DNA of 46,466 bases from Deltaproteobacteria bacterium (GTDB lineage: Bacteria > Myxococcota > Myxococcia > Myxococcales > 40CM-4-68-19): the NCBI GenBank assembly GCA_025358085.1, contig JANYKT010000003.1, positions 1-46,466 of the forward strand, written 5' to 3'. Both the position numbers and the translations under genes were made by a program. This document shows, piece after piece, positions 1-33,001 of this stretch (positions are counted from its first letter, which is position 1; every line of letters begins with the position of its first letter). Below the pieces are notes generated by a model that worked only from the letters and a program-made list of their open reading frames with translations, ran no database searches and was not told where the DNA came from.

Positions 1-1218
1 GAGCACGAGCCCTCCTACAAGCAGGAGGACCGGCTCCGCTACAACGCGCGGGACCTCGCGCTGGTGCGTGCCCAGCGGGCTCGCGCGGTCTGCGTGCTCG
101 GCAGCGCCACGCCTTCGCTCGAGACCTTGCGGCGCGCGCAAGAGGGGAAGCTCACCACGCTGCGGCTCCCCGAGCGCGTCGACGGTCGCGCGTTGCCGGG
201 CCTGACCATCGTCCGCAGGCCGGTGACCGATCGGCTCTTTACGACAGCCCTCACCACGGCGCTTCTGGAAACCCTTTCCCGCGGCGAGCAGTCCATCCTC
301 TTCCTCAACCGACGCGGCCACAGCCGCACGCTCTTGTGCAAGGCCTGCGGCGCCGCCGTGGGCTGCCCCAACTGCTCGGTTGCCCTGGTGCTGCACCGCG
401 TGCAGCGCGAGGAGCTGCGCTGCCATCTGTGCGGCCACCGCGAGCCGCCGCGCCTTGCCTGCGCCTCCTGCGGCGGACGCAAGCTGGTTGCGCTCGGCGG
501 CGGCACCGAGAAAGTGGAAGAGGAGCTGCGCGCACTGCTGCCGCTTGCACGGGTGGCGCGGCTCGACCGCGACGCGGCGGGCGGGCCCGGCGAGGCCGCG
601 GACATCCTCGTCCGCTTTGCGCGGCGCGAACTCGACGTCCTGGTGGGCACGCAGATGGTGGCCAAAGGGCACGACTTTCCCGGCGTCACGCTCGTGGGCG
701 TGCTGGACGCGGACGGGCCGCTGCACCTGCCGGACTTTCGCGCCGCCGAGCGCTGCGTGCAACTTCTGACGCAGGTGGCGGGCCGCGCCGGCAGGGGCAG
801 GCTGCCCGGTCGTGTGGTCGTGCAAGCCTTCCGCCCCGAAGAGCCGGCGATTTCTGCGTCGGGCGATTACGCCTCCTTCGCGGCAGCGGAGATGGAGCGG
901 CGCGCTGCGCTTGAGTTCCCGCCCTTCGTGCGCCTCGCGGCAGTGCGCCTGCAAGGCAACATCGAGGGGCGTGTGAAGGGAGCGGCCGAACGCCTTGCTT
1001 CCACGGCTCGCCGCCTGATCGAACAAGGACTTCCAGCGAGCGTGCTCGGACCCGCGCCGGCTCCGCTGGCCCGCTTGCGCGGCAAGCATCGCTACCAATT
1101 ATTGCTGCGGGCCCGCGACCATGGCCCGCTGCACCAGCTGGGTCGCGCCCTGACCGCGGCGCACGCAATGACCGGCGTCGAGCTCTCTGTCGACATCGAC
1201 CCCGCTGCGCTTTTGTAG
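1..1218 (+). CDS. priA: Primosomal protein N' (PriA helicase), 3' part
   Basis: This is the C-terminal part of the PriA replication-restart helicase, a superfamily 2 3'-5' DNA helicase that reloads the replisome at stalled forks. The frame is open from base 1, so the gene starts outside the window. Visible helicase motifs are the motif III region VLGSATPSLET near the start, ILFLNRRGHS, VLVGTQMVAKGHDFPG and QVAGRAGRG. Between them sits the PriA zinc-binding region: CKAC, CPNC, CHLC and CASC pairs, about bases 340-480. The end, with SVDIDP close to the terminus, is normal for the family. Peptide deformylase follows 84 bp downstream on the same strand. Family recognition is secure; only the 5' part is missing. 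Confidence 0.96.
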   Translation, partial: EHEPSYKQEDRLRYNARDLALVRAQRARAVCVLGSATPSLETLRRAQEGKLTTLRLPERVDGRALPGLTIVRRPVTDRLFTTALTTALLETLSRGEQSILFLNRRGHSRTLLCKACGAAVGCPNCSVALVLHRVQREELRCHLCGHREPPRLACASCGGRKLVALGGGTEKVEEELRALLPLARVARLDRDAAGGPGEAADILVRFARRELDVLVGTQMVAKGHDFPGVTLVGVLDADGPLHLPDFRAAERCVQLLTQVAGRAGRGRLPGRVVVQAFRPEEPAISASGDYASFAAAEMERRAALEFPPFVRLAAVRLQGNIEGRVKGAAERLASTARRLIEQGLPASVLGPAPAPLARLRGKHRYQLLLRARDHGPLHQLGRALTAAHAMTGVELSVDIDPAALL

Positions 1219-1302
1219 AATCCCCCGCCTCGCAGCGGAATCTTCCCTGCAAAGCTCGTGCGCGAGTAGTTATACTGCGCCCGGAGAGGAGCAAGCGAGC
1301 AC

Positions 1303-1866
1303 ATGGCCCTGCGTGAAATCCTGGTCTGGCCCGATCCCCGCCTGAAGCAAAAGGCGAAGGTCGTGGGCAACGTCGATGCCGCCGTCCGCAGGCTCTGCGA
1401 CGACATGGCCGAGAGCATGTACGAAGCCAATGGCGTCGGCCTCGCCGCCCCGCAGGTGGGCGTGCACCAGAACGTGATCGTCATGGACGTGCAGCAGCGT
1501 ACCGACAAGGAGGGCACGCGGCACAAGGGCGAAGGCCTGTTCTGGCTCATCGACCCGGTCCTCAAATTCGCCGAGAGCGAGTTCACTTACACGGAAGGCT
1601 GCCTTTCGATCCCGGACGAGTACGAGGATGTCACGCGCTTCGGGCACATCGTCTGCGAGTTCACCGGACGCGACGGCAAGCGGCGCGAGCTCGAAGCCGA
1701 AAACACGCTCTTGTCGGTCTGCGTGCAGCATGAGATGGACCACCTGCAGGGCAAGCTCTTCGTCGACCATTTGAGCGCGCTCAAGCGGGAGCTGATCAAG
1801 CGGCGGATGAAGAAGCTCAAGGCGCAGCGCGAAGCGGAGCGTAAGGGAGAGGCGACAGCATTGTAG
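1303..1866 (+). CDS. def: Peptide deformylase
   Basis: Removes the N-formyl group from the initiator methionine of nascent proteins at the ribosome; a metal-dependent cytosolic enzyme. All three family motifs are present in order: GVGLAAPQVG (about residues 45-54), EGCLSIP (about 98-104, with the metal-binding Cys) and HEMDH (about 143-147, two metal-binding His and the catalytic Glu). At 187 residues it has the usual length. The ATG is preceded by a purine-rich GGAGAGGAG about ten bases upstream, which supports this start. A TATACT hexamer at about 1271-1276 could be a -10 element, but I see no convincing -35. It lies just after priA, so the two may be co-transcribed. Confidence 0.96.
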   Translation: MALREILVWPDPRLKQKAKVVGNVDAAVRRLCDDMAESMYEANGVGLAAPQVGVHQNVIVMDVQQRTDKEGTRHKGEGLFWLIDPVLKFAESEFTYTEGCLSIPDEYEDVTRFGHIVCEFTGRDGKRRELEAENTLLSVCVQHEMDHLQGKLFVDHLSALKRELIKRRMKKLKAQREAERKGEATAL

Positions 1867-2037
1867 AGCCGGCGGCTCCGCTTCTGCCCGCGAGTCCTGT
1901 GCCGCTTGCGAACGCGGCCCTTTCAACTTCAGCGAATCCACGCGGGCTGCCGTCTCCGTAGACTTTGCACGGAGGAGACAGTCAGGAGGAGAGGGCCGCT
2001 TGCGTGGCGTTCACGCGCGGGATATGCGACGGCGAGA

Positions 2038-2622
2038 ATGCTTCTGCCTTTGCTGCTCGCCATTCTCGCCCGCGCCACTGCCGCCGCCGATGACACACTG
2101 TTTCGCCGTGTCGCTGCGCGCGACGCGCAGGCGCTGCGGATTCTGTATGACCGGTGCGCCGGCCTCGCCCTGGGCGTGGCGCTCCGGATCCTGCACAACC
2201 GGAGCGAGGCCGAGGACGTGGTGCAAGAAACCTTTCTGGAATCGTGGAAACGAGCGGAGACCTTCGACGGGCAGCGCGGCAGCGCCACGGCCTTCGTGCT
2301 GTCCATCGCGCGAAGCCGCGCGCTCGACCGCTTGCGCTCCCGGGTCACCTCGGACAAGGCCCTCGCCTCCCTCGGACGCGAGGCCGAGGCATCGGTTCCG
2401 CTGCCCATCGAGACCGCCGAGCACCGGCAGGACCGCGAGCGCATCCAGGCCGCGCTTTTGACCCTTCCTCCCGAGCAACGCCAGGTGCTGGAGCTCGCCT
2501 ATTTTGAAGGGCTCACCCAGCGCGAGATCGCCGACCGCCTTTCAGATCCGCTCGGCACCGTCAAGACGCGCGCGCGGCTGGCGCTCGAGAAACTTTCTGC
2601 CCTCCTCGGGGAAGCGCAATGA
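2038..2622 (+). CDS. ECF-family RNA polymerase sigma factor
   Basis: A two-domain sigma-70 family factor of the ECF type that would redirect RNA polymerase to a stress regulon. Region 2 is seen around LYDRCAGLALGVALRILHN followed by SEAEDVVQETFLESW. Region 4 is PPEQRQVLELAYFEGLTQRE with the helix-turn-helix DRLSDPLGTVKTRARLALEK. It overlaps the following anti-sigma gene by ATGA, the normal arrangement for such a pair. The start is doubtful. From the ATG at 2038 the first 19 residues (MLLPLLLAILARATAAADD) look like a secretion signal, which is strange for a sigma factor. No good ribosome binding site is visible, and the frame stays open upstream to a TTG at 1906. The sigma domains themselves begin at about residue 20. 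Confidence 0.9.
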   Translation: MLLPLLLAILARATAAADDTLFRRVAARDAQALRILYDRCAGLALGVALRILHNRSEAEDVVQETFLESWKRAETFDGQRGSATAFVLSIARSRALDRLRSRVTSDKALASLGREAEASVPLPIETAEHRQDRERIQAALLTLPPEQRQVLELAYFEGLTQREIADRLSDPLGTVKTRARLALEKLSALLGEAQ

Positions 2623-3497
2623 CCTGCGCCGAGTTCCAGGAGTCCGCCGGTCTGATGGCCGTGGGCGCCCTCTCAACGGAGGAAATGTCGCTGGCCGAGG
2701 CGCACCTCGCCGAGCCACGACACAGCGGCTGCCTGGCGGCGCTGCGGCGCGCCGCTGACGGCGTCGAGGTGCTCGCGCGGTCGCTTTCGCCAGCGCGGCT
2801 CGACGAACGTGTCTGGCGGGGCATCGAATCGCAACTCGCAGGACCTCCGCCTGTGAAACGCGCGCGACGCGCGGCACCGCCGTGGCGTGAGCGGATCGCC
2901 TGGAGCGCGGCCGCCGCGGCCGTGGTGCTCCTGCTCGCGAATCTGGCTGCGCGTTCTCACGACAACCGTCGCTTTGCGGAGCAGACCGCCACCGCAACGC
3001 AGGAGCGGGCGACCGCGACAGGGACGCTGGAGAGAGAGCGCGCCACCGCGACGGCCGTCGCAACGCGTCTCGAGAAGGAGCGCGAGAGCTGCGCGCGAGA
3101 CCTGCTGGCCGTGCGTGACGATGCGGACAGACAACGCTTCGCGCTGGAGCTGCTGCAGACGCCCGCCACCCTGGTGGTCTCGCTCGCGCCCCCCAAGGGT
3201 GGAAAGCCCGGTGCGCGTGCCCTGCTGAATCTCGAGCAGCGAAAGGGCGTTTTGCTGTCGGTCGCCCTCGCGCCGCAAGCGGGGAAAGACTACGAGCTCT
3301 GGATCATCCGCGGCGACAAGAAGCTGTCTGCCGGGCTCCTTCGCGCGGGTCCATCGGGGGGGGTTCTCGCATCGATCGATTCGGGGCTGTTCGCGAGCGG
3401 AAGGCCCGATGCCGTGGCGGTCACCCTGGAGAAAACCGGTGGCGCGCCGCAACCGACTGGCCCTATCTTGCTGGTCGGCGCACTTCCCAAATCCTGA
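2619..3497 (+). CDS. Anti-sigma factor, RskA-like, membrane-anchored
   Basis: Probably holds the preceding ECF sigma factor inactive at the inner membrane. The N-terminal cytosolic part (residues 1-45) resembles a zinc-type anti-sigma domain. However, the usual His-x3-Cys-x2-Cys is reduced to HLAEPRHSGC, with one Cys where two are expected. One membrane segment follows (about residues 92-108, AAAAAVVLLLANLAARS). Next comes a Thr/Ala/Glu-rich, probably coiled-coil stretch with imperfect repeats of the type ERATAT (about 120-160). The last 110 residues match the extracytoplasmic anti-sigma-K (RskA) C-terminal domain, for example YELWIIRGDKK and VAVTLEKTGGAPQPTGPI. The gene starts inside the sigma stop codon (ATGA), implying translational coupling. 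Confidence 0.85.
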   Translation: MTCAEFQESAGLMAVGALSTEEMSLAEAHLAEPRHSGCLAALRRAADGVEVLARSLSPARLDERVWRGIESQLAGPPPVKRARRAAPPWRERIAWSAAAAAVVLLLANLAARSHDNRRFAEQTATATQERATATGTLERERATATAVATRLEKERESCARDLLAVRDDADRQRFALELLQTPATLVVSLAPPKGGKPGARALLNLEQRKGVLLSVALAPQAGKDYELWIIRGDKKLSAGLLRAGPSGGVLASIDSGLFASGRPDAVAVTLEKTGGAPQPTGPILLVGALPKS

Positions 3498-3583: not shown

Positions 3584-4108
3584 GTGATCGCGCTCCTTGC
3601 CTCGCTGCTGCTGGCAACGCTGACTCTGGATTTGCGCGAGGGATCGCTCACGTACACGCTGGTGCACAAGCTCCACGAGGTCCAGGGCGTGACGCACGCG
3701 CTCGAGGGGCGCGCGCAGGTGCAGCCCGATGGCATCGGCCGCGTACAGGTGCGCGCGAAAGTCGCGACCTTCGACAGCGGCAACTCGAACCGCGACGAGC
3801 ACATGCGCGAGGTCACCCATGAAGCGGCGCACCCGTACGCGACGGTCAAGGGCACGCTCTCCGGTCTCGCCTTCCCGCTCAAGTCGCCCGCCGAGGTAAC
3901 CCTGCATGCAACAGTCGAGCTGAACGGCGTCAAGCAAGCGGCGGAGATCCCGATCAAGCTCACGCCGGAGGGGGCGCGAGTGCGAGCGAAATTTGCCGTC
4001 TCGCTCAGCCTCGACGCCTTCCAGATCGACAGGCCCGAGCTGCTCTTCGTCAAGGTGGACGACCGCGTGTTGCTGAGCGGAGAGCTCTTGTTCGAGGAGG
4101 CAAAGTGA
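3584..4108 (+). CDS. YceI-family periplasmic protein
   Basis: A 174-residue secreted protein of the YceI/lipocalin-like family, which binds isoprenoid or other amphipathic molecules in the periplasm. It starts at GTG with a short signal peptide (MIALLASLLLATLTL). Family features are the early SLTYTLVHKLHEVQG strand, KVATFDSGNSNRDEHM (cf. family FDSGNxxRDxHM), and a repeated beta-strand pattern ending FAVSLSLDAFQIDRPELL. The next gene may encode a cytochrome b561-like protein. YceI genes are classically paired with b561 genes (yceI-yceJ in E. coli), which supports both calls. Confidence 0.8.
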   Translation: MIALLASLLLATLTLDLREGSLTYTLVHKLHEVQGVTHALEGRAQVQPDGIGRVQVRAKVATFDSGNSNRDEHMREVTHEAAHPYATVKGTLSGLAFPLKSPAEVTLHATVELNGVKQAAEIPIKLTPEGARVRAKFAVSLSLDAFQIDRPELLFVKVDDRVLLSGELLFEEAK

Positions 4109-4265
4109 GGTGTTCTGCGCCGCCGTCCTGCTCTGCGCCGCTTGCCTCGGGAGGCCTCCGCCCGCCGAGTCCGTCACCGACTCCGAGTGGAGCAGCGCGA
4201 ACATGTGCCACTCGGTGTACAGCAGACTCGACCTTTCCGGCGACCAGTGGTCCACAGCACAACTG

Positions 4266-4997
4266 ATGCGCGCCCTCTGCACAGTGCTGCTTATCCTCGC
4301 TCCTCTCGCCGCGCGGGCTCAGGGGACTTCGGCTCAGGGGACTCTCGCGCAGCAAGCCGCGTCCCAGCCGCCTCCCACGCCGCCGTCGCTCGTGCCGCCC
4401 ACCCAGAAACCGGCGCGAGTTTCGCCCGCCGGCGCTCCGCCGGCCAAGACGCCCCCGCCGTCTGCCGACGCGCAAAGCCCCTCCTCCCCGTCGGACGACT
4501 TCGACCTGCTTCCGAAAGAGAAGCTCGTCGATTCAGCGCGAGTCGCCGAGATCGAGCGGAAGGCGACGCTTCGCCGGAGCATGCTGCAGCTGCACCAGCT
4601 CGGTGGCTTCTTGACGCTCGGCGCACTCTCGGTGACGGTCATCAGCGGCCAGCTCAACTACCACGACAAATATGGAGGCGGTGGGGACACCGGGCGGTAC
4701 CGAAGCTTGCACCAGATCTCGGCCTACGGCAGCGCGGCCATCTTCGCCGCGACCGGCCTGCTCGCCGTCCTCGCCCCGAATACGAGCGACAAGCCGGTGC
4801 GGCTCGATACCGCAACGCTGCATAAGATTCTCGTCTCCATCGCCACCGCGGCCATGCTGTCGGAGGTGGTACTGGGCCCGCTTACCAGCGGAGCCGAAGG
4901 CAGCCTGCGCCAGCGCGACCTGGCGCTCGCGCACCAGATCATTGGTTACACCGCGCTCGCTACCACGGCGGCTGGTTTCCTGGTGCTGACCTTCTAG
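4266..4997 (+). CDS. Four-helix membrane protein, candidate di-heme cytochrome b561-like
   Basis: No confident family match by eye, but the layout is telling. From ATG 4266 there is a signal peptide (residues 1-19). A Pro/Ala-rich linker (20-75), a charged helix and four membrane helices follow. Each helix opens with a histidine: LHQLGG (H110), LHQISAY (H149), LHKILV (H186) and AHQIIGY (H223). Because helices alternate direction, H110/H186 fall on one membrane face and H149/H223 on the other. That is the two-heme geometry of the b561 core. The upstream YceI gene supports a redox or quinone-linked role. A GTG at 4110 is also in frame and follows a strong GAGGAGG sequence. Using it would add 52 residues with a cysteine-rich hydrophobic start, so the true start is open. 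Confidence 0.6.
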   Translation: MRALCTVLLILAPLAARAQGTSAQGTLAQQAASQPPPTPPSLVPPTQKPARVSPAGAPPAKTPPPSADAQSPSSPSDDFDLLPKEKLVDSARVAEIERKATLRRSMLQLHQLGGFLTLGALSVTVISGQLNYHDKYGGGGDTGRYRSLHQISAYGSAAIFAATGLLAVLAPNTSDKPVRLDTATLHKILVSIATAAMLSEVVLGPLTSGAEGSLRQRDLALAHQIIGYTALATTAAGFLVLTF

Positions 4998-5115
4998 CGA
5001 TGGCAACGTCATCCAGCGGCCCGCGGTGGTTTCGCTCGCAACTCATCCGGTGACCGCGCGTGGCGACGGGACCATCCCCTTGCCGACGCCCTGAAGCTGC
5101 GCGACAACCTATGGA

Positions 5116-5406
5116 ATGAGCGAGCACCGCAGCGAGTCCGAACGCGCCTGTCTTGCCCGGCTGCAAGAGATGGACGATGCGTTGGCGCGCATGGAAGACG
5201 AGCTGCCGGACGACATGTTGCCGCTCGGCGCGGAGGCCCGCACACGGGTCGGCTTCTGGCTGCAGCGCATTGCCGGAGGCGGCGCCGATCTCTCGCAACT
5301 CGTGGAAGCCATGCGCGATATCTCCGGCATGATGGACTCGCTCACGGCGCGCCTGCTGCTGGTGCCCTGGGACGGACACACGGGTGCAGGCAAGCTGAAG
5401 AGCTGA
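5116..5406 (+). CDS. Small uncharacterised protein
   Basis: A 96-residue acidic, mostly helical soluble protein that I do not recognise. It begins MSEHRSESERACLARLQEMDD and contains helix-forming segments around ALARMEDELPDDMLP and LSQLVEAMRDISGMM. No signal peptide, membrane segment or metal motif is visible. Its stop is immediately followed by the ATG of the methyltransferase gene (TGAATG), so the two are almost certainly one transcript and possibly translationally coupled. A helper role for the methyltransferase is plausible but is inference only. Confidence 0.65.
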   Translation: MSEHRSESERACLARLQEMDDALARMEDELPDDMLPLGAEARTRVGFWLQRIAGGGADLSQLVEAMRDISGMMDSLTARLLLVPWDGHTGAGKLKS

Positions 5407-6309
5407 ATGGAAGACCCCACCCGAGCTCATCATCGTGCGGACCAGCTCTCGGCGCGGCAGCGGTTCGACGAAGTCGAATGCACCATTTCGCACCTCTTCC
5501 GGTGGCCCCACCCAGCGCTCGGAGGCCGCCGCTACGGGGAAGCGCTGCTTCAAAGCCTCGCGTCGCGCGGCATCGGCCCGGGAACGAGCGGCGTCATCGA
5601 GATCGGCGGCGGAGCCGGCCACCTCGCCGAGGCCGCCTTCCGCGGGGAGGCCGGGCCATTCACGCGCGCCCGCTGGACCTCGCTCGACCTCTCGCCGGCG
5701 CTGCTCGCCGCGCAGCGCCTGCGCCTTTCCGGGCACGCGGGCTGGAACGGCCTTCGCGGCGACGCCCTCGACTTGCCGCTGCGCCCGTATTCCGTCGACG
5801 GACTCGTGCTCGCCAATGAAGTGATCGCGGATTTGCCAGTCGTCGAGGGCCGCAACACAGGCGCGGTGCGCTTCGTGAACCAGCTCTCTCGCGTACTCGC
5901 CCGGGGCGGCGCCGCGGTGCTGACCGAATTCGGCGGCGACTTCGAGCCGGGCCCGGTGCGCCTCTACACCACATCCGGCAAAGGCGAGCACACCGAGTGG
6001 TCGATCGACTTCCGCACCCTTCGCGCGGCGGCCAGCGAAAATGGACTTGAGGCTGAGGAGCTGCCTTTGCACGAGCTGCTCGGGGTCGACCTGCGGATGC
6101 GCTGCGCCAGCTACACCGACCTGTGGCGGCTGCGACGCTTCACCCGCTGCGAGGTGTTCGCCGCACCGGCCGACGAAGTCCGCCGACGGTACCCGCTTCT
6201 GTCCCGATTCCTCGACCTGCCAGAATTGGGCTCGCCGCGCTGGCCCGATGCGTCGGCGCAAAGGGGATTTGCGCAACTTTTTCGCGCGCTCATCCTCCGC
6301 AAGCCCTGA
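5407..6309 (+). CDS. Class I SAM-dependent methyltransferase
   Basis: A 300-residue Rossmann-fold methyltransferase. Motif I, the SAM-binding glycine loop, is VIEIGGGAGHLAEAAF (about residues 60-75). Motif II follows at WTSLDLSPALLAAQRL with the acidic ribose-binding residue. The motif III region is RGDALDLPLRPYSVDGLVLANEVIADLP. A later LARGGAAVLTEFGGD resembles motif V/VI. The N-terminal 50 residues and the last 80 are not recognised and may carry substrate specificity. The substrate cannot be told from sequence. It follows the small gene at 5116 without a gap. Confidence 0.8.
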   Translation: MEDPTRAHHRADQLSARQRFDEVECTISHLFRWPHPALGGRRYGEALLQSLASRGIGPGTSGVIEIGGGAGHLAEAAFRGEAGPFTRARWTSLDLSPALLAAQRLRLSGHAGWNGLRGDALDLPLRPYSVDGLVLANEVIADLPVVEGRNTGAVRFVNQLSRVLARGGAAVLTEFGGDFEPGPVRLYTTSGKGEHTEWSIDFRTLRAAASENGLEAEELPLHELLGVDLRMRCASYTDLWRLRRFTRCEVFAAPADEVRRRYPLLSRFLDLPELGSPRWPDASAQRGFAQLFRALILRKP

Positions 6310-6390: not shown

Positions 6391-7929
6391 ATGTCCTATC
6401 GCCTGACTCTTTTCCTTTTGTCGCTCGCAGCCCTGAACCCTGCAAGCGCGCAGGAGGACCCGCCTCCGCCTCCGAGCGGAACCGCGGGAGTCGGCGGACA
6501 GAATCAGCCGGCACAGGGACCGGGGCAGGCCTTCAGCGATCCGTCGCAGCTCTTCAGCGGCAGGTCGGGCGCGTTCTTCGGCCTCGGATTCACCAGCATC
6601 AGCGGTGAAGGCCTCTACGCCACCACGACCGTCAACACCGACTTCAACCTGGGCCCGGTCGGCCTCGGCCTCGCCCTCCCGCTCAATCTATTGGTCTGGA
6701 ACAACGACAAATGCTGTGGCGACGACCCCGACCTCGAAGGCAACCACCCGCACTCGCGCGAGTACAAGGCTTACAGCGGCATCCTGCGCAAGCGCGACTG
6801 GAACCAGTGGCAAGACTATGCGCGGCTCATTCGCTACGTGCGCTATGGCCACAAACGCGATCCGCTCTACGTGCTGGCCGGGCAGATGTGGGGCGCCAGC
6901 ATCGGGCACGGCACGCTGCTGAATCGCTACTCCAACTCGCTCAGCATCGACCATCCCAAGTTCGGCCTCGCGGTCGACCTCAACTCCACTTTTGTCGGCG
7001 TCGAGACCATCACCGACAACGTCACCGCCCCCACGATCCTGGGTGGCCGCGCTTATGTCCGGCCCTTTGGCGAGACGCCTGTCCTGCGCGGCCTCGCCTT
7101 CGGCGCGAGCCTGATCAGCGACCGCACCGCGCCGCGCAGCCTCGCCTATGTCACCAGTGCCGACGGCACGTCGACCTCGCTCAAGCAAGATACGAGCACT
7201 GGTTCCGTGATCGTCGACAACTACGACGCCATGTTCGCCGCCGGCGTGGACGTCGAATATGAGGTGCTTCGCAATTCGCTGATTCAACTCATCCCTTATG
7301 TGGATGGAAATCGCCTGCTCGGCGCAGGCAATGGCCTCCATGTCGGCGTGCTCACGAATCTGTTTCTGCCGGTGCCAATCATCGCTGTCGATATCCAGAG
7401 CCGATTCGAATACCGCTTCATGCAGCCCGGCTACATCCCGGAATACTTCGACCAGACCTATGACCTGGGCCGCATCCAGTACGCGATCAATCCGAACGAC
7501 GGCAGCAAACCGGTTTACTTGCCCAAGTACGCTGCTGCACAAATGGCCAAAGTCGCGGGCGGAAAACCGCGCAAGGGATATTACGGCGAGGTTTCTTTTG
7601 GCTTCGGCGGCTTCGTCCAGGTGGGTGGCCTTTACCAGGACTACGAGGGCGACCCGAACGGCGCCTCGCTCGGCCTCTTCGCCACGCTGCCCAAGTTCGA
7701 GCTGATCAAGCTTTCCGCTTATTACCTGCGCAAGAACATGGCCGGCATTTCCGATGCCTTCCATATCGACGAGCGCTCGCTTCTCGCCGCCTCGGCTGCC
7801 TACGAGCTGTTCGGGCCGCTTTACTTGCGCATCGATTACAAGCGCCAGTGGCAGTTGCGCCCCGGCGACAGCCAGATCAAGGCCATCGACAGCGTCAGCG
7901 CAGGGCTCGCGACCTTCCTGCCGTTCTAG
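6391..7929 (+). CDS. Putative outer-membrane beta-barrel protein
   Basis: A 512-residue exported protein. It has a signal peptide (MSYRLTLFLLSLAALNPASA) and a short Pro/Gly-rich spacer (EDPPPPPSGTAG). A long region of alternating hydrophobic/polar residues with aromatic girdles follows, typical of amphipathic beta strands. It ends with a C-terminal phenylalanine (ATFLPF), the usual terminal signature for BAM-dependent insertion of outer-membrane barrels. A CCGD motif near residue 109 is unusual for a barrel. I do not recognise a named porin family. The gene stands in its own transcriptional slot between the methyltransferase (82 bp gap) and alaS (48 bp gap). A transport or structural role is inferred, not shown. 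Confidence 0.7.
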   Translation: MSYRLTLFLLSLAALNPASAQEDPPPPPSGTAGVGGQNQPAQGPGQAFSDPSQLFSGRSGAFFGLGFTSISGEGLYATTTVNTDFNLGPVGLGLALPLNLLVWNNDKCCGDDPDLEGNHPHSREYKAYSGILRKRDWNQWQDYARLIRYVRYGHKRDPLYVLAGQMWGASIGHGTLLNRYSNSLSIDHPKFGLAVDLNSTFVGVETITDNVTAPTILGGRAYVRPFGETPVLRGLAFGASLISDRTAPRSLAYVTSADGTSTSLKQDTSTGSVIVDNYDAMFAAGVDVEYEVLRNSLIQLIPYVDGNRLLGAGNGLHVGVLTNLFLPVPIIAVDIQSRFEYRFMQPGYIPEYFDQTYDLGRIQYAINPNDGSKPVYLPKYAAAQMAKVAGGKPRKGYYGEVSFGFGGFVQVGGLYQDYEGDPNGASLGLFATLPKFELIKLSAYYLRKNMAGISDAFHIDERSLLAASAAYELFGPLYLRIDYKRQWQLRPGDSQIKAIDSVSAGLATFLPF

Positions 7930-31510: not shown

Positions 31511-33001
31511 ATGCCGAGCGTGCGAACCGCAGCGTCTGTCGTGCTGCACCGCCCGGATGGACGGGTGTTCTGGGTACGGCGCGGAGAGCAGCTCAGATTC
31601 GCGGGTGGCTTCTATGCTTTCCCCGGTGGCGCCATCGATCTGGACGATGCGGCGATTGTGCTCGCGAACGGAGGGCACCTCGACGCGACCGAGGCGCCGT
31701 CCATCGTGGCCGCCGCCCGCGAGCTGTTCGAAGAGACCGGCGTGCTGGCGGTACCTGGGGCCGAGCGCATTCCGGCTGCGGAGCGGAAAGCCGTTCGCGA
31801 GTGGCTGCTCAAAGGCGAAACAAGCTTCGCCGAGCTGCTGAGGCGGCACGGGCTCAAGCTCGACGCGGGTCAATTTCTTCCCGCCGGGCGCTGGGTCACG
31901 CCGCTCGCCATGCCAGTGCGCTTCGATGCGCGCTTCTATCTGGTCGAGTTGCCGCGGGGTGAGATCGCCGAAGTGTGGCCGGGAGAGCTTTCGGACGGCG
32001 AGTGGATCCTGCCGGCCGAAGCGCTCGCCCGCTATGACGCTGGCACAGCCCTGCTCCATCCGCCGGCGTGGCATACGCTGAAGTCGCTCTCCGTCGTGGC
32101 GACCGCGCGGGAAGCGGCGCCGCTCCTGCTCGACCCGGCCCGCGCGCCCTGGAAGATGCCGATGAGCGAGCACATCGTGCAGCGCATCGAGTTGCAGCGC
32201 GGCGTGGTGCTCGTGCCGCTGCGCACGCCCACGCTCTTGCCCGCGACGCACACCAATTGCCTGTTGCTCGGGGACGACCGGCTCTGGGTAGTGGACCCGG
32301 GCTCGCCGTATCCCGAGGAGCAGGAAGTGCTGCGGCGCACGCTCGCGGCGCTGTCCGCCGAAGGCCGCAAGGCGGTCGGTATCGTGTTGACGCACCATCA
32401 CATCGACCATATCGGCGGCGCGCAACTCTTAAGCAGCGAGCTTGAGCTGCCCATCGCGGCCACGGCGGAGACGGCGGCGCTCTTGCCTGGGCTGCGCGTC
32501 GACAAGATCCTGCGCGACGGCGACCGGCTCGAGGTGGGCCCGCGCGGCTGGCGCTGTCTGCATTTGCCCGGGCATACGCGCGGACATCTCTGCTTGATCG
32601 AGGACGGGAGCTCCGCGGTGGTGGCGGGGGATTTGGTGGCTGGCACCGGGACCGTGATCATCGATCCTCCCGAAGGGGATATGACCGATTACCTGGCCTC
32701 GCTGGACCGGCTATTGAATGAAAAGCCCGGGACGTTATATCCGGCGCACGGACCGGTGGTGCCCGGTGGGGTGGCCCGGCTGCGGGGCTATGTAAAGCAC
32801 CGTCTGGAGCGCGAGGAGCGCGTGGTGCAAGCGCTCGCGGCGCAGGGGAAAGCGACGCCTGCGCAGCTGGTGCCGAATGCCTATCCGGACATCAAGCCCG
32901 AGCTCTATCCCTTTGCCGAGCGCAGTCTGCTGGCGCATCTAATCAAGCTGGTTCGGGATGGCCGCGCGGTCGAGCACGACGGCCTCTACCAGGCGAATTA
33001 A
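31511..33001 (+). CDS. NUDIX hydrolase fused to metallo-beta-lactamase fold
   Basis: A 496-residue two-domain protein. The N-terminal half is NUDIX-like: GGFYAFPGGAIDLDD begins the box and AAARELFEETGVL closes it (the REuxEExGu core), with a roughly 25-residue insertion in between. The C-terminal half is an MBL hydrolase with THHHIDHIGG, HLPGHTRGHLCL, AGDLVAGTGT and YPAHGPVV. A final winged-helix-like end is typical for LACTB2-like MBL proteins. ATG 31511 is used because the upstream frame only runs into the divergent gene. The two halves suggest one enzyme hydrolyses a nucleotide-like and a (thio)ester or phosphodiester bond. Substrates unknown. Confidence 0.9.
   Translation: MPSVRTAASVVLHRPDGRVFWVRRGEQLRFAGGFYAFPGGAIDLDDAAIVLANGGHLDATEAPSIVAAARELFEETGVLAVPGAERIPAAERKAVREWLLKGETSFAELLRRHGLKLDAGQFLPAGRWVTPLAMPVRFDARFYLVELPRGEIAEVWPGELSDGEWILPAEALARYDAGTALLHPPAWHTLKSLSVVATAREAAPLLLDPARAPWKMPMSEHIVQRIELQRGVVLVPLRTPTLLPATHTNCLLLGDDRLWVVDPGSPYPEEQEVLRRTLAALSAEGRKAVGIVLTHHHIDHIGGAQLLSSELELPIAATAETAALLPGLRVDKILRDGDRLEVGPRGWRCLHLPGHTRGHLCLIEDGSSAVVAGDLVAGTGTVIIDPPEGDMTDYLASLDRLLNEKPGTLYPAHGPVVPGGVARLRGYVKHRLEREERVVQALAAQGKATPAQLVPNAYPDIKPELYPFAERSLLAHLIKLVRDGRAVEHDGLYQAN

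Follow-up and report, generated by a model that had tools for sequence, protein, structure and literature searches.

YceI proteins are widespread, and the source of their electrons is an open question in the field. The association of a YceI gene with a gene for a b561-type cytochrome is already known. In Burkholderia, the LcoA-BcnA system (yceJ-yceI in E. coli) is described in PMC9113575 as protecting membrane lipids from peroxidation; the authors of that study propose that the b561 protein re-reduces quinone bound to the YceI protein. Eukaryotic b561 proteins carry one histidine per helix: those of helices 1 and 3 (H1 and H3) hold the non-cytoplasmic heme, and those of helices 2 and 4 (H2 and H4) the cytoplasmic heme, the latter being surrounded by a Gln at H3+14, a Gly at H3+18 and a Gly at H4+4 (PMC10691727). 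Other reference points are CybB, in which superoxide on the P-side is coupled to quinone reduction on the N-side (as outlined in PMC11869295), and the designed di-heme proteins 4D2 and CytbX, in which histidines of alternating helices bind two hemes (as outlined in PMC10120048).

Here, we describe a bacterial gene cluster in which another type of di-heme core would hold the place of LcoA beside YceI. What is new is the ligand order of this core, its signal-like N-terminus, a DFDLL motif and the linkage to genes for Rieske or CxxCH proteins. No description of YceI combined with such a b561 core and with Rieske or CxxCH proteins was found in the literature outside subscription papers and preprints.

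Gene limits and segments

The features of the locus are collected in Table 1; the window is the whole stretch of DNA analysed, 46,466 nucleotides in length. The YceI gene matches PF04264 above the Pfam cut-off (E 2.7e-12, 47.7 bits, cut-off 23.7). It is one of 8 YceI matches in the window's genome (G000) and a divergent one, the best copy of this genome reaching 1.7e-53. The sigma/anti-sigma pair adjoins YceI directly upstream, the same pair precedes YceI in locus L067, and these proteins are possible regulators. As a separate observation, ECF sigma factors of more distant homology occur in the vicinity of b561-like family members in L082, L084, L093 and L094.

For the b561-like gene, an alternative GTG start at 4110 is preceded, 9 bases upstream, by GAGGAGG. 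The homologous locus L066 (66% identical, same gene order) leaves room for only 61 codons between a stop and residue 93, and the short N-terminus is therefore favoured. An in-house hydrophobicity rule (not SignalP) found a signal-like N-terminus in 36 loci of a hand-chosen sample of 38, in agreement with the secretory signal proposed by an earlier reading of the letters and open reading frames (hereafter the sequence-only reading). The Pro-rich spacer of that reading did not hold as a fixed feature, as L066 has only 40 residues between its likely start and residue 93. The DFDLL pattern is present in 32/38 loci, with F79 and L81 nearly invariant in alignment A1, which holds 25 of 32 aligned loci.

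Table 1. Features of the YceI/b561-like locus (positions in the window)
Feature	Positions	Strand	Remarks
ECF sigma factor (ORF 1906-2622) and RskA-type anti-sigma factor (2619-3497)	1906..3497	+	Pfam (RskA_C)
YceI-family gene, divergent	3584..4108	+	GTG start, 174 aa; N-terminus short, hydrophobic
Four-helix b561-like protein, proposed two-heme	4266..4997	+	243 aa from ATG 4266, best start; next same-strand gene after YceI
Signal-peptide-like segment MRALCTVLLILAPLAARAQ	4266..4322	+	boundary set by eye
Pro/Ala-rich spacer	4323..4496	+	length varies among homologs; pLDDT ~45-62 over most of the spacer
DFDLL motif, residues 78-82	4497..4511	+	conserved, ahead of helix 1
H110 (H1)	4593..4595	+	65/67 rows; proposed non-cytoplasmic heme ligand with H186
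H149 (H2)	4710..4712	+	65/67 rows; proposed cytoplasmic-side heme ligand with H223
H186 (H3)	4821..4823	+	67/67 rows
H223 (H4)	4932..4934	+	66/67 rows
Rieske-gene remnant candidate (weak)	4996..5064	+	directly after the b561-like stop

Four conserved histidines in a predicted four-helix core

The sequence-only reading had singled out four histidines, one per helix, and proposed to check in an AlphaFold model and in homologues that they face the core and are conserved. Both checks bore the claim out. Over 67 distinct homolog rows the four positions are near-invariant (Table 1), and no other core column exceeds 20% His in these rows. The departures are a gap in L097 (truncated) and an R in L098 for H1, a gap in L097 and an E in L099 for H2, and a gap in L014 for H4; L098 and L099, the two most distant rows, thus hold both non-His letters, all other departures being gaps. 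R103, R104 and K/R187, which adjoin H1 and H3, are also conserved.

The AlphaFold model of residues 93-243, made with a 56-row alignment, consists of four helices (mean pLDDT 94.8, pTM 0.86). Each helix bears one of the histidines, at a depth of 16, 3, 4 and 8 residues in its own helix for H1 to H4, helix 1 beginning well before its membrane part. The conservation moment of each helix, calculated with its own histidine excluded, points within 17-45 degrees of that histidine, and all four histidines therefore face the conserved side. H1 and H3 occupy one end of the bundle and H2 and H4 the opposite end, which is the arrangement, shared with b561 proteins, that had been read from the sequence for H110/H186 and H149/H223. 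The signal-like N-terminus, the one feature used for this placement, would place H1/H3 towards the periplasm and H2/H4 towards the cytoplasm. The side remains a prediction, because loop charges fail to confirm it and, if anything, speak against it: the segment before H1, supposedly outside, is the most basic one (mean K+R 4.5).

Comparison of folds did not single out a relative. Foldseek with the predicted fold gave no match at E <= 0.001, and the PDB searched with profile A1 gave none up to E 10. VIA-align did align the b561 structure 4o6y_A (Z 10.9, rmsd 3.2, 132 aligned), soluble or designed bundles scoring as high or higher (top Z 14.2); its rows are mostly generic bundles, from which b561 is not separated.

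Relationship to known b561 families

By curated cut-offs, the b561-like protein belongs formally to neither PF03188, the eukaryotic b561 core, nor PF01292. The window protein has no Pfam family above cut-off and no match to PF03188; its sole Pfam match is PepSY_TM, at 0.025 for the whole protein and 0.0092 for the core alone. Across 56 members of the family, weak matches were found to PF03188 in 18 (best 5e-4), to PF01292 in 13 (best 1e-4), to PF01794 in 11 and to CtaA in 3. In 189 genomes, PF03188 matched at 2 places, a number too small to build a profile, and neither of them belongs to the b561-like family. One of these, L106:1144-1887 (genome G066), encodes a 247-aa protein over the cut-off (2.2e-6) with an N-terminus that looks signal-like by eye. 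A phmmer search of the PDB with one PF03188-matched bacterial protein returned nothing relevant.

The core nonetheless carries the signature of the eukaryotic cytoplasmic heme site. Among the 67 rows, H3+14 is Q in 49 and E in 13, H3+18 is G in 63, and H4+4 is G in 62; the window protein has E at H3+14. Of the 22 positions that follow H3, no other reaches 80% Q/E, and all three offsets would be matched by chance with a probability of ~5e-4. In E. coli YceJ and 26 PF01292 proteins (alignment A3, 27 rows, i.e., YceJ with 26 of 30 fetched PF01292 loci), the invariant histidines are H18, H52, H145 and H159; as read from the sequence, H145 and H159 of YceJ fall within a single hydrophobic segment, and none of the invariant histidines is in the third segment. 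Since the ligand order of YceJ/LcoA differs, it is the eukaryotic-type core that the family matches, and we conclude that the b561-like protein functions in the manner of a b561 core with eukaryotic ligand order, a likeness made up of the order of the histidines, three residue positions and weak Pfam matches. The E. coli YceI-b561 pair invoked by the sequence-only reading is a parallel for the YceI partner and not for the ligand order.

The locus could also be a standard bacterial LcoA/YceJ-BcnA/YceI pair that has merely diverged. The adjacency of YceI and the weak PF01292 matches would fit, as would profile comparison, which speaks equally for a di-heme b561-like core in general: hhalign of A2 (55 of 66 listed segments plus the window, 56 rows) with the PF01292 alignment scored 28.0, none of 30 shuffles exceeding 16.3, at a probability of 23% (5.6% with A1), the controls being shuffled and reversed versions of A2. 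This origin is nevertheless improbable. The four invariant histidines of A3 are distributed otherwise than one per helix, no PF01292 place coincides with a b561-like place in 60 genomes, and a search of limited sensitivity found YceI within ~1.5 kb at 0/30 PF01292 loci. PF01292 itself has no match in the window protein or anywhere in the window's genome. CtaA was considered as a related di-heme family and rejected, its hhalign score (19.2) being below that of the best shuffle (21.6). DsbB, the intended four-helix negative control, was found in 0/40 genomes.

Distribution and linked redox genes

The b561-like family occurs at 96 places in 87 of the 195 genomes of the window's phylum, and also in two Bacteroidetes single-cell genomes, where both loci are YceI-linked; the plasmid collection contained no match. 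Neighbours were counted at 97 loci, i.e., the 98 scanned minus L223, a contig-end fragment with no core match at 1e-6. At 84 of them, a YceI gene of the same orientation is no more than 2 kb away, which, together with the PF04264 match and the four-helix model, upholds the pairing recognized by the sequence-only reading. The two-gene cluster described there was incomplete, in that it missed the same-strand Rieske or CxxCH gene seen at 80/97 loci: a Rieske gene at 63, a CxxCH-motif lipoprotein at 14 and another CxxCH protein at 3. At 7/97 loci, neither YceI, Rieske nor CxxCH gene is present on the same strand. Out to 3 kb, every YceI and Rieske match shares the strand of the b561-like gene, and two opposite-strand CxxCH-profile matches were left out of the counts.

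The loci are not independent, because 48 of the 97 come from three genera; by genus group, the YceI link is found in 23/27 and the redox link in 21/27. Genomes have exactly one YceI-linked copy, except G188, G018, G119 and G116, and the copies without YceI are mainly second or third copies in genomes that also have a YceI-linked one. Neighbouring genes at 40 of the loci had served to make the Rieske and CxxCH profiles; among the 55 fetched loci that did not contribute to them, 51 have a Rieske gene and 2 a di-CxxCH gene. With a background of 8 YceI matches and 5 Rieske homologues in the 5.4 Mb of the window's genome, a same-strand neighbour within 2 kb would be expected, as a rough estimate, in well under 1% of cases.

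PF00355 matches the Rieske neighbours in 3/3 tested, in two stretches each, and two Rieske motif pairs are present in 8 of 9 neighbours examined. Two CxxCH motifs were likewise found in 10/11 lipoproteins, for which Pfam matches are sub-threshold only. The third partner type is called a cytochrome on the basis of a single CxxCH motif, and the two such proteins scanned have no Pfam match. A Rieske gene ~4 kb away in L069 was left uncounted, as its partner is a PSCyt2/DUF1549-like gene; L224 shows the same pairing. At these two loci (L224:2737-8032 and L069:3171-8344), a double-Rieske gene follows a large CxxCH protein and precedes a small lipoprotein-like gene; the PSCyt2/DUF1549 match of the large CxxCH protein of L069 is sub-threshold, and in the window's genome this double-Rieske/large-CxxCH context is unlinked to the b561-like family. 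In one of the Bacteroidetes loci (L037), a gene for a SOUL heme-binding protein (5232-5777; PF04832, 1.6e-34) directly precedes the pair, and a catalase-peroxidase that looks KatG-like by eye is encoded ~2.2 kb upstream (894-3071).

The window locus

No intact linked Rieske gene was found at the window locus. In L067, the order is ECF sigma, RskA-type anti-sigma, YceI, b561-like, Rieske and methyltransferase, and the window has this same order minus the Rieske gene. An intact Rieske gene stands at the corresponding place in L066, L067 and L222, 18-61 bp downstream of the b561-like gene. There, in the window, the Rieske profile scores 10.5 bits, the top of 6468 window segment-frames (next separate place, 9.6). 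With tblastn, Rieske and CxxCH proteins gave only weak matches in the window, the best (E 0.008) lying elsewhere, at 31784-31930; the case for a remnant is therefore one of profile score and place, and the segment may, on weak grounds, be what is left of a Rieske gene. Elsewhere in the window's genome, a double-Rieske homologue (44% identity) is found beside a gene of a different cluster.

Further downstream, a SAM-dependent methyltransferase-like gene (5407-6309) also follows the cluster in L067, L068 and L070. The next gene noted (6391-7929) encodes 512 aa with a match to NF047543 (ImpL63) at 2.2e-43, 148.7 bits against a cut-off of 1000, and L068 has a homologue at the same place.

Proposed function

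We propose, with moderate confidence, that the gene at 4266-4997 encodes an inner-membrane di-heme b cytochrome that serves as a transmembrane electron wire for YceI and for periplasmic Rieske or cytochrome c partners; we infer its heme binding, its membrane side, the ligand of YceI, the direction of electrons and the physiological role. H110 and H186 would hold a heme near the periplasm and H149 and H223 one near the cytoplasm, and electrons would cross the inner membrane via these two hemes. As a YceI-family protein, the YceI partner would be expected to carry an isoprenoid quinone or a similar lipid. In most relatives, the other periplasmic partner would be a double-Rieske protein or a di-CxxCH lipoprotein; the linkage suggests that these are extra periplasmic electron partners. 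Most likely, the protein would shuttle electrons between the quinone pool of the membrane and the periplasmic partners. The YceI-bound quinone might then be kept reduced and oxidised envelope lipids quenched, as proposed for LcoA-BcnA. By analogy, the b561-like/YceI pair probably does the same kind of work as LcoA-BcnA (PMC9113575), most likely with a different cytochrome core. Because the cluster adds Rieske and CxxCH partners, it makes the electron path concrete and testable.

Electrons could instead flow inward, from the Rieske or cytochrome partners, superoxide or YceI quinol to the periplasmic heme and on to a quinone on the cytoplasmic side, as in a superoxide oxidase. CybB provides a precedent (as outlined in PMC11869295), and the conserved R103, R104 and K/R187 could form a positive patch if their end of the bundle is periplasmic. 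However, with only four His-rich columns in the family, the quinone-site histidines of CybB have no conserved counterpart, and we regard inward flow as unlikely. That the four histidines bind another metal or are structural, the protein serving the cluster as a membrane anchor or as a sensor, agrees with the lack of a curated heme family match and with a heme b that is only predicted, but is highly improbable given that diagonal helices carry a pair of histidines at either end, that the residues at H+4 and H+18 are small, that the weak matches concentrate in di-heme b families, and that Rieske/CxxCH genes are linked.

Extending the electron-wire proposal, the whole cluster might be a minimal, independently evolved Rieske/cytochrome-b-like oxidoreductase. 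A di-heme b561-type membrane core with one His per helix, a Tat-type double-Rieske protein (or di-CxxCH lipoprotein) and a quinone-delivering YceI would allow electron exchange of the quinone pool with acceptors in the periplasm, dispensing with a classical bc1 cytochrome b, and the window would show a pared-down version from which the linked Rieske gene has disappeared. We offer this extension as a speculation of doubtful standing. The electron-wire proposal itself points to a compact, little-studied redox system of the envelope.

Comparison with known systems

LcoA-BcnA, or yceJ-yceI in E. coli, likewise sets a gene for a di-heme-type membrane protein beside a YceI gene. Unlike LcoA/YceJ, the b561-like protein has one His per helix and a signal-like N-terminus, and its cluster contains Rieske/CxxCH genes.

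The likeness to bc1 and b6f complexes lies in a four-helix di-heme-type b protein that is accompanied by a Rieske protein at 63/97 loci, the window not among them, and at some loci by a c-type candidate. In bc1 and b6, the four heme ligands are on two helices, whereas the histidines here are on four helices, one each. Cytochrome b6 (7r0w_A) aligns with the model (VIA-align Z 12.1, rmsd 3.3, 128 residues), a fit that is not above that of unrelated bundles and does not imply homology.

With the eukaryotic b561 core (PF03188; Dcytb, AtCytb561-B, CYBDOM), the family shares the four-helix core, one His per helix and the three signature positions. CYBDOM has its N-terminus outside and its core in TM1-TM4 (PMC10691727). 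The bacterial family differs in that Pfam similarity is sub-threshold only, no helices flank the core and the partners are YceI, Rieske and CxxCH proteins. Through it, the ligand pattern of eukaryotic-type b561 would be a common feature of a bacterial lineage (87/195 genomes). Finally, 4D2 and CytbX share with it the histidines on alternating helices, these proteins being designed and without sequence relation; 7ah0 aligns with Z 11.8, rmsd 2.1 over 104 residues (VIA-align), a Z within the range of generic bundles. In the b561-like family, designed di-heme bundles would have a counterpart in nature.
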